A DNA stretch of 64,000 bases, from positions 1,674,001 to 1,738,000 of the forward strand of contig NZ_CP029287.2 of the NCBI RefSeq assembly GCF_003201675.2, in the 5' to 3' direction. Shown here piece after piece: positions 25,584 through 41,268 of the stretch; the stretch's first letter is position 1, and each line of letters begins with the position of its first letter. This DNA comes from Metallosphaera hakonensis JCM 8857 = DSM 7519 (GTDB lineage: Archaea > Thermoproteota > Thermoprotei_A > Sulfolobales > Sulfolobaceae). The notes below the pieces were generated by a model. It did not search any database and had not been told where the DNA came from. It saw only the letters and a list, made by a program, of their open reading frames with translations. The translations under genes were made by a program, and so were the position numbers.

Positions 25584-26446
25584 TTTATCACCTTCTCAAT
25601 GTTGATCACAACTATATCCCTAGCACCCGCAGTCTTAGCCTTGGCTATAACTTCAGGCAGATCGTCCTCGTCCGCCACAGTCACTACTTCCCAAGCGTCA
25701 GAGTTGCTGAGCTTTGAGACAGCTGGGGCCAACATTGCGGGAAGTGATGAGACCACCGATCTCAGATCCTTGTCATCTACATTCATGAAAACCATCTTTT
25801 TACCCCTTGCATTAAGAGCTCCCTTCATCATGGTTAAGACCAGGTTTATCCTGTCAGCCTCTTCAGATCTCATCCAGTTCCTGTTTCCTATCACCATGGC
25901 ATAGCTTTCAGCTACGACGTCTATGGGCTTGAGGCCATGGAGTTTGAGAGTCGTCCCCGTGCTGGTTACGTCGATAATGGCGTCGCAAGCTCCCAAGGAC
26001 GGCATGATCTCAGCCGCACCGCTAATTTTAACGAGCCTAGCCGTTATGCCTTTTCTCTCTAGGTAACTTCTGGCTACGTTGAAGTACTTAGTTGCTATCC
26101 TAATGTTCTTTGGCATTTCCATGGGATCCTTAATTTCCCAGGAGCTAGGTACGGCGAGCACTAACTTGGACTTCCCGAAATCAAGCTTCACCAGCTCCTC
26201 TACATCAGCACCTGACTCCATGACGTAATCAAGCCCTGTAATTCCAAGATCTACCGCTCCAGTCTCAACCACGTTCGGTATGTCCTCAGTCCTTATTGTC
26301 ACAAGTTGAACTCCTTCCCAGCTAGTTGGGACCATGAGGGCCCGATCGTCATTAGCCATGGACTTAATCCCTACGGAGTTGAGAAATTGCAAAGCTGGAC
26401 CTTGAAGCCTACCCTTGTTTGGAATTGCTATCTTCAAGAACTTCAC
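25580..26446 (-). CDS. hisG: ATP phosphoribosyltransferase, long form
   Basis: First committed step of histidine synthesis. 288 residues: two periplasmic-binding-like domains (IAIPNKGRL start, GITGLDYV near 70, DVTSTGTTL near 165), then a C-terminal regulatory domain (about 215-288) of the kind that binds histidine, so feedback inhibition is expected. GTG start at 26446, or TTG at 26437, which would match the usual [12 protein letters not shown]-terminus; both lie inside hisC. Confidence 0.95.
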
Positions 26447-27446
26447 CTAACTTTTCGAGGAATATTTTGCACTGATCTTTTGTCCCAACAGAGACCCTAT
26501 AAAATCCTTTCATGGGATTGCGAATGGCTACCCCCTTCCTCATGAGTGGCTCTACTAGTTCAAGATCATGCTTGAATAGAAGGAAATTGGTTATGGATCT
26601 AAAAGTTCTAACGCCCATGGAAGTTAGACCTTGATATAGTTCCTCCCTATTCTGGGCAATTTCGGTCGCAATTCTATGAGAATAACCTGGGTTCTCCAAA
26701 GCAGTGATCCCAGCTATTAGCGAGGGTAAAGCCACGTCAAACGGAGTAGCCCCCTTCTCCAGGGTTTTAACTACTTCTCTATTGGCTATAAGGTAGCCCA
26801 CTCTAAAGGACGCCAACGAAAAGGCCTTGCTAAGAGTTCTCACTATTATGAGGTTCGGATACCTATCCACAAGTCTTGAGGCTGTGTACCCAGAGAACTC
26901 ATAATAGGCCTCGTCTAAGAGAACAAACCCCTTTGTGGTCTCCACCAACTCCTTGATTTTCTGTTCCTCCCCTCCGAGCATGGGGGAGCCGGTGGGATTA
27001 TTGGGGTCATCAACAGCTACCATCCTAGCATCTCTGGCCTCTTCAAGAAGCTTTTCCCAATCTTCTCTCCACCAATCTCCTTGCTCCCTAAGAGGGATCT
27101 TCACCTGTCTCAATCCCTTAAATGAAGAGTACACCGAGTACATGCTATAGCTGGGGTAGTTTACCACAATTTTATCTCCTGTCATGGTTAAGTTCAGAAA
27201 CACTGACCTAATTGCACCGTCCCCCCCTGGCGTAGGAAATATCTCCTCTGGTTCAACCTTGTTGTACTCTGCAGCAAGCTCTTTGATTCTCCTGGTTAGA
27301 TCGGGATGCTGATATCTATTACCTTGACTTAGATATTTGTTTACCGCATCCAACACGAAGTCTGGAGGTGGGAAAGGCGATTCATTCAGATGTAGCCTTA
27401 TCCCCTCCTTTATATCTGTGAAATCATACTCCTTGGTCTCCTTCAA
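26409..27446 (-). CDS. hisC: Histidinol-phosphate aminotransferase
   Basis: PLP class I aminotransferase, 345 residues. [11 protein letters not shown] near the start, [10 protein letters not shown] near 145, and [16 protein letters not shown] with the PLP-lysine. First gene of the operon. The TTG at 27446 is the best standard start, but the frame stays open upstream without ATG, GTG or TTG (residues ...GLIYPW), and homologues appear longer; an atypical start around 27485 (ATT) would coincide with the expected transcript start. Confidence 0.93.
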
Positions 27447-27505
27447 CCAAGGGTATATGAGACCTTTTACATCGGTTGGTGCAATAAGAATCCCTCGGGA
27501 GAATA

Positions 27506-36720: not shown

Positions 36721-37542
36721 ATGAGTCCCTCGAACTCCTTTAAGAATGGGATGGGATGGGTTAAGTCTGTTATCTCTAAATCTGACCTGGTGCTGGAGGT
36801 ATTGGACTCTAGGGAGCCTATGTTAACTAGATCCAGGAAAATCGAGAACATGGTGAAATTTAGAAAAGATCTTCTATTAGTTCTAAATAAGGCAGACCTC
36901 GTGCCCATGGAAGTTTTGAAGATGTGGAAGAGATACTTTGAAAACCAAGGTCTGAAAACCGTATTCGTATCCTCAAGGGAGCATCAAGGAACTAAAATAT
37001 TGAGGGATTCAATAAAGGAGTTATTGAGGAAGAACGAAGGAGTGGTGGGGGTCATAGGCTATCCCAAGACAGGAAAATCCTCCGTTATAAATGTGCTGAA
37101 GGGTCACCACGCAGCCTCTACTTCATCAATTCCAATGACTACTGGCTTCACTAAATCCCTTCAGTTGATAAAAATAGATTCGAGGATATATGCCATAGAT
37201 TCTCCGGGAGTCATTCCACCCGACGGTGACTCCTTTGAGAAGGCCTTACGAGGAAGTAGGCCAGAGGACCTGGAGGATCCGGTTAAGGTCGCAATAATGC
37301 TCATTGAGCGAATCATGAAGTTTGATCCAGATACCCTGTCTCTGACATATAAGGTTCAGTTCTCAACTCCCATGGATCTCTTAGAAAAAATAGCTCTTAA
37401 AAGAGGATGGGTGTACAAGTCCGACCGCGAGCCCAATGTGGATCAGGCATCAGTGCAACTTATTAGGGACTACCATGAGGGTAAGATAGCCTACTATAAT
37501 ATACCTCCGGGTTTTGAGAATGATAAAACTCGTGATATTTGA
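36721..37542 (+). CDS. Circularly permuted GTPase (YlqF/RbgA-like)
   Basis: 273 residues. The motifs appear in permuted order: G4 NKAD at 56-59, G5-like SS at 84-85, G1 GYPKTGKSS at 113-121, G3 DSPG at 160-163. Proteins of this kind mature the large ribosomal subunit. The stop overlaps the downstream phosphatase gene by about 29 bases, suggesting an operon. Confidence 0.9.
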
Positions 37543-38008
37543 CGCGGACAAAACACTATGGGACCACTATAACATATCTGAATTTGAGGAACCGTTCTCC
37601 GTAATTGATGGCAACGTTCTCCGGGATAGTAAGGGAAGAACACTCAAAGTCTTTCCAAACGTAAGAAGAACACTGGATGAATTGAAGAAAAAAGACGTAA
37701 AACTGGCCATGGCAACGTGGAATTTTCCCCACAAAACTGAAAAGGTGTTAAGGGCCTTGGATCTGGATCACTACTTTGATGTCATAGTGTCCCGGGACTT
37801 TCCCTTCAAGTTCATAATGATAAGCGAGATCATGAGAAAGCTAAGGGAATCTGGAACTAGCTTGAAATCCGAGGAAGTGATGTTCGTAGATGACAGAAGG
37901 GCCCACTTTGGGAACGTTTGGCTCTACCTGGGCAAAATTAAGTGCCTTGAAATGTGGAAAGATGTAAATGATCACTTGGAGATACTTTCAAAGCTTGAAA
38001 GAAGCTAA
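37514..38008 (+). CDS. HAD-family phosphatase, MDP-1 type
   Basis: 164 residues. Catalytic motif DADKTLW (Asp10, Asp12) and the third motif [11 protein letters not shown] near 125. MDP-1 proteins act on small phosphoesters or fructosamine-type damage; the substrate here is not known. TTG at 37514 or ATG at 37520 can start it. Confidence 0.85.
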
Positions 38009-38069
38009 ACCTTTTTGATTGTCTAGAAAACAAAATCTAATCTTGTTAAAGTTAATACATGATAATAAA

Positions 38070-38078
38070 GTTTAAAAA
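38070..38078 (+). promoter_or_regulatory. TATA box of the ilv operon
   Basis: GTTTAAAAA is centred about 26 bases before 38100, so transcription is expected to begin about 110 bases before ilvB, at or near the ATG of a small leader frame at 38096. Confidence 0.5.
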
Positions 38079-38095
38079 CCCTGATTCTTTCCTAT

Positions 38096-38140
38096 ATGGT
38101 CGTGATAAGGATGTTCGGTGGTTATTTCCTCCAAGTCTGA
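38096..38140 (+). CDS. Candidate ilv leader peptide (14 codons)
   Basis: The frame reads MVVIRMFGGYFLQV and stops at TGA 38138. Five of 14 codons are Val, Ile or Leu, the products of the ilv pathway. Its ATG coincides with the predicted transcription start, so it could be translated as a leaderless frame. A T-rich stretch (taattttctt) begins directly after the stop. Attenuation by translation of this frame is a hypothesis; a second, SD-led start at ilvB follows 70 bases on. Confidence 0.35.
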   Translation: MVVIRMFGGYFLQV

Positions 38141-38209
38141 TAATTTTCTTCAAAAGGTTTCTATTTCATCTAAGCCAATTGGGATTATGTGTAAAGAAGG
38201 TGATTTTGT

Positions 38210-39905
38210 ATGCCAGTGGGAGCAAGGTTAGTAGTTGACTCTCTAAAGAGAGAAGGAGTCAACATAATTTTTGGAATACCGGGTCTAACCAACATGCCAA
38301 TTTACGATGCTTTCTTGGAGGACCTGCAGAACGGTGAGCTAAGGCATGTCCTAATGAGACACGAACAGGCTGCAGTACACGCTGCCGATGGATTCGCGAG
38401 AGCCTCAGGAAGGCCAGGCGTTTGTACTGCCACTTCAGGACCGGGAGCCACAAATTTGGTAACAGGCATGGTTACGGCATATTGGGATAGCTCACCAGTT
38501 GTTGCTCTTACAGGGCAGGTGGTTAGACCGGTCATTGGAAAGATGGCCTTCCAGGAGGCCGATACTCCTGGAATTTTTGCCAACGCAGCTAAATACGTTG
38601 TCCAGTTGAAGAACATATATGAGATTCCTATCTGGATAAAGAACGCGTTCTATATCGCCTCCACGGGAAGACCAGGACCGGTTGTAGTGGATATTCCGAG
38701 GGATATTCAACTTGAGAAAATAGATGACGTAAAGTGGCCCGAGAAAGCTGAGGTAAAGGGCTACAAACCCTTTAAGACCATAATTGAGCCCGCTAAGATA
38801 AAGAAGGCTGCCGAAATCTTGATCGAAGCTGAAAGACCGATCATTTTAGCTGGGACCGGAGCCGTTTGGTCCATGGCTACACCTGAGATCCTTGAGCTGT
38901 CTGAGATGTTAGCAGTTCCCATGGTGTCCACTCTTCCCGGTAAATCCGCAATACCCCACGATCATCCCCTATTCCTTGGAGCCATGGGCTACTACGGGAG
39001 AGCGGAGGCCTCAATGGCCGCACTGGAATCCGATGCCATGCTAGTAGTTGGAGCAAGATTAAGCGATAGAACTTTCACGTCATATGACGAAATGGTGGAA
39101 ACGAAGAAAAAGTTCGTGATGATAAATATTGACCCAACAGACTCTGAGAGAGCTTTCAAGGTCGACGTACCTTTATACGGTGACGCCAAAGTATTACTGA
39201 GAGAGATAATCAACGCGATTAAGATCCTAGGTAAGAAAAGGGACAACTCAGCGTGGGTTAAAAGAGTTAAGGAACTTAGGGAGTATTACTCTCAGTTTTA
39301 CTATCATGAGGAGGACGGAAAATTAAAGCCGTGGAAGATACTGAAGACCATAAGGAACTCAATTCCTAGGGATTCCATAGTTACAACCGGAGTTGGGCAA
39401 CATCAGATGTGGTCGGAGGTCTTCTGGGAAGTCCTGGAACCGAGGACTTTCCTTTCCTCAACGGGTATGGGAACCATGGGATTTGGGCTCCCTGCAGCCA
39501 TGGGAGCAAAGATGGCTAGGCCAGACAAGGTTGTAGTGGACCTCGACGGAGACGGTTCATTCCTAATGACCGCCAACAATTTGGCCACCGCTGTGGATGA
39601 GCACATACCAATCATTTCGGTGATTTTCGATAACAGAACTTTAGGTCTAGTAAGACAAGTTCAGGACCTATTCCAGAGCAAGAGGGTAGTGGGAGTCGAC
39701 TACGGACCTTCTCCGGACTTTGTGAAGTTCGCTGAGTCTTTCGGAGCCCTTGGATTTAATGCGACCAGTTACGACGAGATAGAGAGGTCCATAAGGACTG
39801 CAATCAAAGAGAACATCCCCTCGGTAATAAGGATACCCATAGATAAGAACGAGTTAGCTTTACCGACTCTACCCCCAGGAGGGAAGCTGAAACAGGTGAT
39901 AGTAC

Positions 39906-39928
<23 letters not shown>
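38210..39928 (+). CDS. ilvB: Acetolactate synthase, catalytic subunit
   Basis: ThDP enzyme joining two pyruvates (or pyruvate plus 2-oxobutyrate) for valine, leucine and isoleucine. 572 residues: ThDP Glu52 in MRHEQAAVHAADG, the FAD/quinone-like middle domain, and the Mg-ThDP motif DLDGDGSF...N in the C-terminal third. AAGGTG six bases before the ATG is a ribosome site. It overlaps ilvN by 23 bases. Confidence 0.95.

Positions 39929-41268
<1,340 letters not shown>

Follow-up and report, generated by a model that had tools for sequence, protein, structure and literature searches.

The leader peptides of the ilv, leu, his and trp operons are ribosome-mediated attenuators in bacteria. For bacterial RF2 (prfB) and eukaryotic antizyme, synthesis of the protein depends on whether ribosomes leave a short first frame by a shift, and this shift senses the protein's own pathway. 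The regulatory frameshifting of antizyme is also covered in a 2021 review of archaeal recoding, which counts the Saccharolobus alpha-L-fucosidase as the sole archaeal case of -1 frameshifting (PMC8211752). A 2016 review of frameshifting states that no examples are known in which hungry-codon frameshifting is used to make starvation-specific products, and regards frameshifting in the pheL leader as incidental (PMC5009743). In a large survey of prokaryotic frame transitions, leuA, isopropylmalate and acetolactate enzymes go unmentioned in the main text (PMC3711429). We found no precedent for the arrangement described below, including archaeal amino-acid leader control, in the literature searched, the coverage of which did not extend to subscription papers and preprints.

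The locus analysed here lies upstream of ilvB in the window (the whole stretch of 64,000 nucleotides of DNA under study). It shares with leuA, hisC and trpB of the Sulfolobales a design common to all loci, in which the frame of a mini-ORF closes just past a codon for the amino acid made downstream and a neighbouring frame is open to the enzyme.

The mini-ORF upstream of ilvB

In the window, ilvB for the large subunit of acetolactate synthase (38210..39928, + strand; NF005039, 1169 bits) is accompanied by ilvC for ketol-acid reductoisomerase (40261..41268, +; NF004017, 479 bits) and, between the two, by an ilvN-like frame for the small subunit (39906..40292, +), the assignment of which is weak (NF008362, 25.7 bits, below cut-off). 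The sequence-only reading had reported a TATA box, a frame opening at ATG 38096, a T-rich stretch and an SD-led ilvB, and each of these is present: the TATA box of the ilvB promoter, TTTAAAAA, occupies 38071..38078 (+); the frame encodes MVVIRMFGGYFLQV and stops at TGA 38138-38140; the T-rich stretch 3' of this TGA, TGATAATTTTCTTC, is modest; and the ilvB start, ATG 38210, is preceded by the SD-like AAGGTGAT at the end of a 69-nt spacer (38141..38209, +). The proposed start of the frame has to be moved, however, because ATG 38096 is absent in the congeners L088, L089 and L090 and sits some 5 nt ahead of where transcription is expected to begin. The distance from TTTAAA is 31 nt to GTG 38102 and 38-42 nt to ATG 38111, and is kept in Sulfolobaceae. 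Judged by these distances, the ilvB transcript probably begins near 38100-38103, which would probably leave ATG 38096 outside the transcript. Because ATG 38096 is lost in congeners and the spacing from TTTAAA is kept, we take the conserved mini-ORF to be 38111..38140 (+), encoding MFGGYFLQV followed by the stop.

A counterpart of this mini-ORF was found upstream of ilvB in the 30 Sulfolobaceae examined, one of them divergent (G006: TTG AGC CAA GTA CGC CAA ATC GAT TAA); in genome G011 this ilvB was not found. The core, 38111-38137, fits M-x-G-[GDE]-x-x-L-Q-[VI], followed by 0-2 residues and the stop, in 28/28 orthologues. In all 28, GGT, CTC and CAA are nucleotide-invariant, and the stop shifts by 0, 1 or 2 codons between orthologues, always in frame. 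Beyond these 28, G021 (ending in LQVW and stop) and the divergent G006 fit with variation. The motif is unique to ilvB: GGNGRNTDYNCCCTCCAARTH has exactly one match per genome in 22/31 Sulfolobaceae, just upstream of ilvB, and the reversed motif has none. Because of these counts, the ilvB mini-ORF is far beyond chance, so that the earlier caution that codon enrichment in so short a frame might be accidental can be set aside. The emphasis that had been placed on N-terminal Val and Ile codons was misdirected, as the first Val/Val/Ile codons of the ATG 38096 frame are not conserved among orthologues. The predicted sensor codons lie instead at the end of the core (CTC 38129-38131, CAA 38132-38134 and GTC 38135-38137, +), directly before TGA 38138-38140. 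We rejected rarity as an explanation for CTC, which makes up 16.5% of Leu codons in the window.

Organism groups are given here as numbered families (f) and genera (g). A longer in-frame form of the mini-ORF opens at GTG 38102 (38102..38140, +), a possible leaderless start, and an in-frame GTG is found in 23/28 orthologues. This GTG is out of frame in g3, where one extra base lies between GTG and an ATG frame that is still intact, and is absent in g9, which has GTG at the ATG position, and in g11, which has CGA in its place. A second GTG, in the +1 frame at 38118, is invariant in the Sulfolobaceae listed. It arises from the invariant GGT-G of the mini-ORF and may act as a second start, as an SD-like stimulator or in both roles. 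A resemblance to C/D-box RNAs (ATGATR...CTGA), judged by eye, was dropped because CTGA is lost outside Metallosphaera.

When the leader codons were compared across the ilvB upstream regions of Sulfolobales, the frame was kept in 28/28 Sulfolobaceae, and Leu/Val/Ile mini-ORFs of other types were present in seven further families, making eight with Sulfolobaceae. In f3 (10/10 genomes) an SD-led ATG GAA CTC CAA GTN NNN and a fixed stop encode M-E-L-Q-V-x, in which R, Q, S, M or H occupies the variable position x. The mini-ORF of f2 reads [MEL]EV-x-QIH, with Leu, Val and Ile; that of f6 MRSQI; that of f7 MEL[RS], opening with TTG GAA TTG; and those of f5 MELWVMPLEIR and MPSELGVTDMEIQ. Family f8 has either MDLREV[GE]W or tandem SD-led mini-ORFs with one branched-chain codon each, namely MSNVP[AM], MSNI[MW] or SNI[AC], and ME(L/V)A(W). 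In L199, the f8 cassette at ilvB is present in a second copy with CTC changed to GTC (Leu to Val), giving MEVA and stop beside MELAW and stop. The peptides vary widely between families (MFGGYFLQV, MELQVR, MELR, MSNVPM), and only the cognate residues and the frame logic persist. No ilvB mini-ORF was seen in L268 and L269, two genomes from another order of the class, and a search of the order with a less stringent motif yielded matches only at control level. We also noted a distant acetolactate-synthase-like paralogue with an internal TGA, possibly a decayed gene (G000:C1:336777-338381, in L002). On this evidence, the mini-ORFs almost certainly exist and are conserved.

Mini-ORFs at leuA, hisC and trpB

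In Sulfolobaceae, a short frame of the form M-x-[IVF]-L-..stop (e.g. MSVLH or MSILHS, each followed by the stop) overlaps leuA, which lies in its +1 frame, and in g3, g5, g6 and g11 the leuA frame has no canonical start. The same combination, leuA off the frame of a Leu mini-ORF and lacking a canonical start, recurs in g2 and some f8. The leuA cassette of f8 is [AGT]TG GAA CTC GC(A/G) TAA, and that of f7, f9 and f3 is A-TTG-TTG or A-TTG-CTC, in each case with leuA in -1; an in-frame ATG or GTG is also present in f3 and f7. The leuA of f5 (L220, L222) is an exception: leuA is preceded, in its own frame, by GTG GTG GGC TAG, the TAG is not followed by a canonical start, and the frame-exit logic developed below fails there. 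In f3 and f8 (e.g. L193, L194, L200, L233) leuA and ilvB are divergent neighbours, and in f8 the two genes, which encode unrelated enzymes, open with an identical 24-base cassette, GGTGCAGNCGAAARTGGAACTCGC.

A mini-ORF of the same design precedes hisC in the window. It reads TTG CAC CAA CCG ATG TAA (MHQPM and stop; 27467..27484, - strand) and contains a His codon, and hisC itself (26409..27485, -; TIGR01141, 286.5 bits) runs in its -1 frame as ATT GCA CCA ACC and onwards, the first canonical start being only TTG 27446. The conserved N-terminus (IAPT..) of the window's hisC is therefore without a canonical start, and the automatic call at TTG 27446 loses about 13 conserved residues. Across 14 species, an SD is followed by A-TTG-CAY, the start codon being followed directly by His in mini-ORFs that read MHQP.. 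or MHL, MHI or MHH and stop, with both CAC and CAT in use and hisC in -1 (ATT GCA ...). A search of the window's own genome with GAGG-N2-5-YTTATTG for more cassettes returned hisC as the only convincing match. Because the hisC-type cassette reads A-TTG-CTY at f3 leuA, the Ala codon of the enzyme frame is GCA at hisC versus GCT at leuA, that is, its third base tracks the amino acid made. At trpB, a mini-ORF ending in Q-W-stop overlaps the trpB ATG (CCA ATG GTA A), W follows CAA in 11/11 species, and trpB is in -1. In the stretches examined, hisC was not found for f7, f8 and f9, nor trpB for g2 and g9.

The offsets of leuA, hisC and trpB from their mini-ORFs are constant within families, and the control genes ilvD, trpE, trpG, trpC and hisG have ordinary starts. 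We note that ilvB and trpB possess usable starts of their own. We consider it very probable that the mini-ORFs sense their cognate amino acid.

Stop codons, slippage and rival explanations

The sequence directly shows mini-ORFs with cognate codons, offsets between frames, enzymes lacking canonical starts and a phase-specific absence of stops. The last of these is seen in the spacer ahead of ilvB, where frame 0, that of the mini-ORF, contains 2-8 stops in every one of 28 Sulfolobaceae (four in the window species). The +1 and -1 frames of all 28 are free of stops up to a point between -14 and +26 relative to the ilvB start. In the window, the +1 frame is open from GTG 38118 through the spacer into ilvB (MVISSKSDNFLQKV..., 38118..38231, +) and the -1 frame from the CTC CAA site into ilvB (PSLIIFFKRF..., 38131..38238, +). 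After dinucleotide shuffling of the Sulfolobaceae sequences, the fraction with both frames open never exceeded 6.4% in any species and was usually much smaller. With one species per genus, all of about 43 stops fall in one of the three phases; this bias is not credibly due to chance, and because genera are related we give no combined p-value. Openness is confined to the -1 frame in f3, where it holds for 9/9 species (0.013-0.094 per species by shuffling); the -1 frame is likewise open in 9/9 from f2, f6, f7 and g2, the support from individual GC-rich members being weak, and in f9 up to -15 of the ilvB start. In f5 and f8 the -1 frame of the mini-ORF is the ilvB frame itself. In many of the ilvB -1 frames, canonical starts are missing both close to the sensor site and ahead of it, so that ribosomes could enter these frames there only via a shift or a non-canonical start. 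Because the spacer peptide is not consistently conserved by codon position, openness of the spacer, and passage through it, rather than its product seems to be selected.

We propose, with a probability of about two in three, that the element is a frame-exit leader, the readout of which is slippage of the ribosome out of the mini-ORF frame. Specifically, ribosomes would initiate on a mini-ORF of about 3-12 codons that includes one or more codons of the amino acid made downstream (Leu and Val/Ile at ilvB, Leu at leuA, His at hisC and Trp at trpB). With the cognate tRNA charged, the codon would be decoded and translation would terminate at the in-frame stop just past it. With the tRNA uncharged, the ribosome would pause, its A site empty, and the tRNA in the P site would slip, usually by -1; meeting no stop, the slipped ribosome would enter the enzyme frame directly (leuA, hisC, trpB and ilvB of f5 and f8) or elsewhere cross the spacer to the ilvB start and raise translation or transcription of ilvB. 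The net effect would be that starvation switches the operon on. We infer translation of the mini-ORFs, slippage, its trigger and its sign from this arrangement.

In the P site, the codon that precedes the cognate one is usually C-CAA, G-GAA/GAG or A-AAC, a pattern that fits starvation-promoted slippage with an empty A site. Reasoning from the sequences, two of three base pairs would survive a -1 slip, because the base to the left of the codon equals its first base. The A-TTG cases differ, and there the initiator tRNA could shift to AUU. The required direction is mostly -1, is +1 for Sulfolobaceae leuA, and may be either at Sulfolobaceae ilvB, so that no single slip rule covers all loci. Against frame exit, no stimulatory RNA structure is conserved, CTC is not a rare codon, and f5 leuA with its TAG in the leuA frame does not fit.

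Two unlikely alternatives, to which we give the same weight, have to be considered. The first is that enzyme-frame translation initiates independently, without slippage, at a non-canonical or overlapping start that competes with a mini-ORF start one or a few bases away. Candidates are AUU in hisC and in f3 and f7 leuA, given that at hisC and a number of leuA genes A-TTG also contains ATT, one base ahead of TTG; the invariant +1-frame GTG of Sulfolobaceae ilvB, which could be a separate start; and the trpB ATG, which overlaps the Trp codon. Dual initiation may hold for hisC and some leuA genes, which could start at AUU. However, the ilvB -1 frames of most Sulfolobaceae and f3 are stop-free although they lack a canonical start near or before the sensor, leuA of four Sulfolobaceae genera lacks an in-frame canonical start, and the cognate codons are left unexplained, including the agreement of GCA at hisC and GCT at f3 leuA with His or Leu in the mini-ORF frame.

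The second is the view taken by the sequence-only reading, classical leader-peptide attenuation or TnaC-like coupling, in which a stall on the Leu/Val codons alters termination in the leader with no frameshift. A conserved leader with cognate codons is what this view expects, such leaders are known from bacteria, and several genera have a short T-rich stretch past the stop. The part of that reading that stands is an archaeal short frame with conserved Leu and Val/Ile, linked to a branched-chain operon and found in eight families; the part that lacks support is termination at a T-run. No T-tract past the mini-ORF stop is universal (the longest T-runs are 1-5 nt, and below 3 in g3, g8 and g9), no RNA fold is conserved across the ilvB leaders (alifold -2.1 kcal/mol; z of single sequences mostly near 0), terminator and antiterminator hairpins are absent, and an Rfam scan of 37000-39500 gave 0 matches up to E=1, with no T-box or riboswitch family. 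Attenuation also leaves the stop-free other two frames and the off-frame enzymes without starts unexplained, and the peptide sequence is not conserved between families as would be expected of a TnaC-like arrest peptide. Because stops are absent in specific phases and leuA, hisC and trpB are designed off frame, we favour frame-exit readout over a terminator.

It is very improbable that what is conserved is an operator in the DNA or a motif in the RNA where the transcript begins, with the frame incidental: GGT and CTCCAA are nucleotide-invariant near the expected transcription start, but translation is indicated by synonymous variation, by stops that wander in frame, by the depletion of stops in specific phases and by codons matched to the operon, and an Rfam match is absent.

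Comparison with known systems

More broadly, we put somewhat better than even odds on a general amino-acid control of Sulfolobales in which ilv, leu, his, trp and perhaps other operons would be gated by starvation-triggered frameshifting from a cognate mini-ORF; this would be the first natural regulatory use of hungry-codon frameshifting. A frame-exit leader would constitute a novel type of genetic sensor for starvation, simple and protein-free, that reads tRNA charging. If true, it explains enzymes that seem to have no start codons, and the annotated gene starts of leuA and hisC need correction. Hungry-codon frameshifting has so far been a laboratory phenomenon, and a long-standing question would become directly testable in the genetically tractable Sulfolobus.

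The proposed leader resembles bacterial attenuators in that a short leader frame with cognate codons precedes the operon and tRNA charging would be the signal. It differs from them in having one to three cognate codons rather than runs, in lacking alternative hairpins, and in that the enzyme frame is offset from the leader and the readout would be frame exit; it is archaeal and not homologous to them. With RF2 prfB and antizyme it would share an exit from a short first frame that gates the product and senses its own pathway, whereas the present model takes an uncharged amino-acid tRNA as its signal and a mostly -1 shift, with cognate cassettes at several operons. The Saccharolobus alpha-L-fucosidase likewise involves a -1 shift, and its host is an archaeon from the same family, but the shift is internal, joins two halves of a gene and is not a sensor of amino acids. 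The slippage step is shared with hungry-codon frameshifting in E. coli, in which shortage of a single aminoacyl-tRNA leaves the A site empty and the ribosome slips; unlike the leaders proposed here, it has been studied in reporters.
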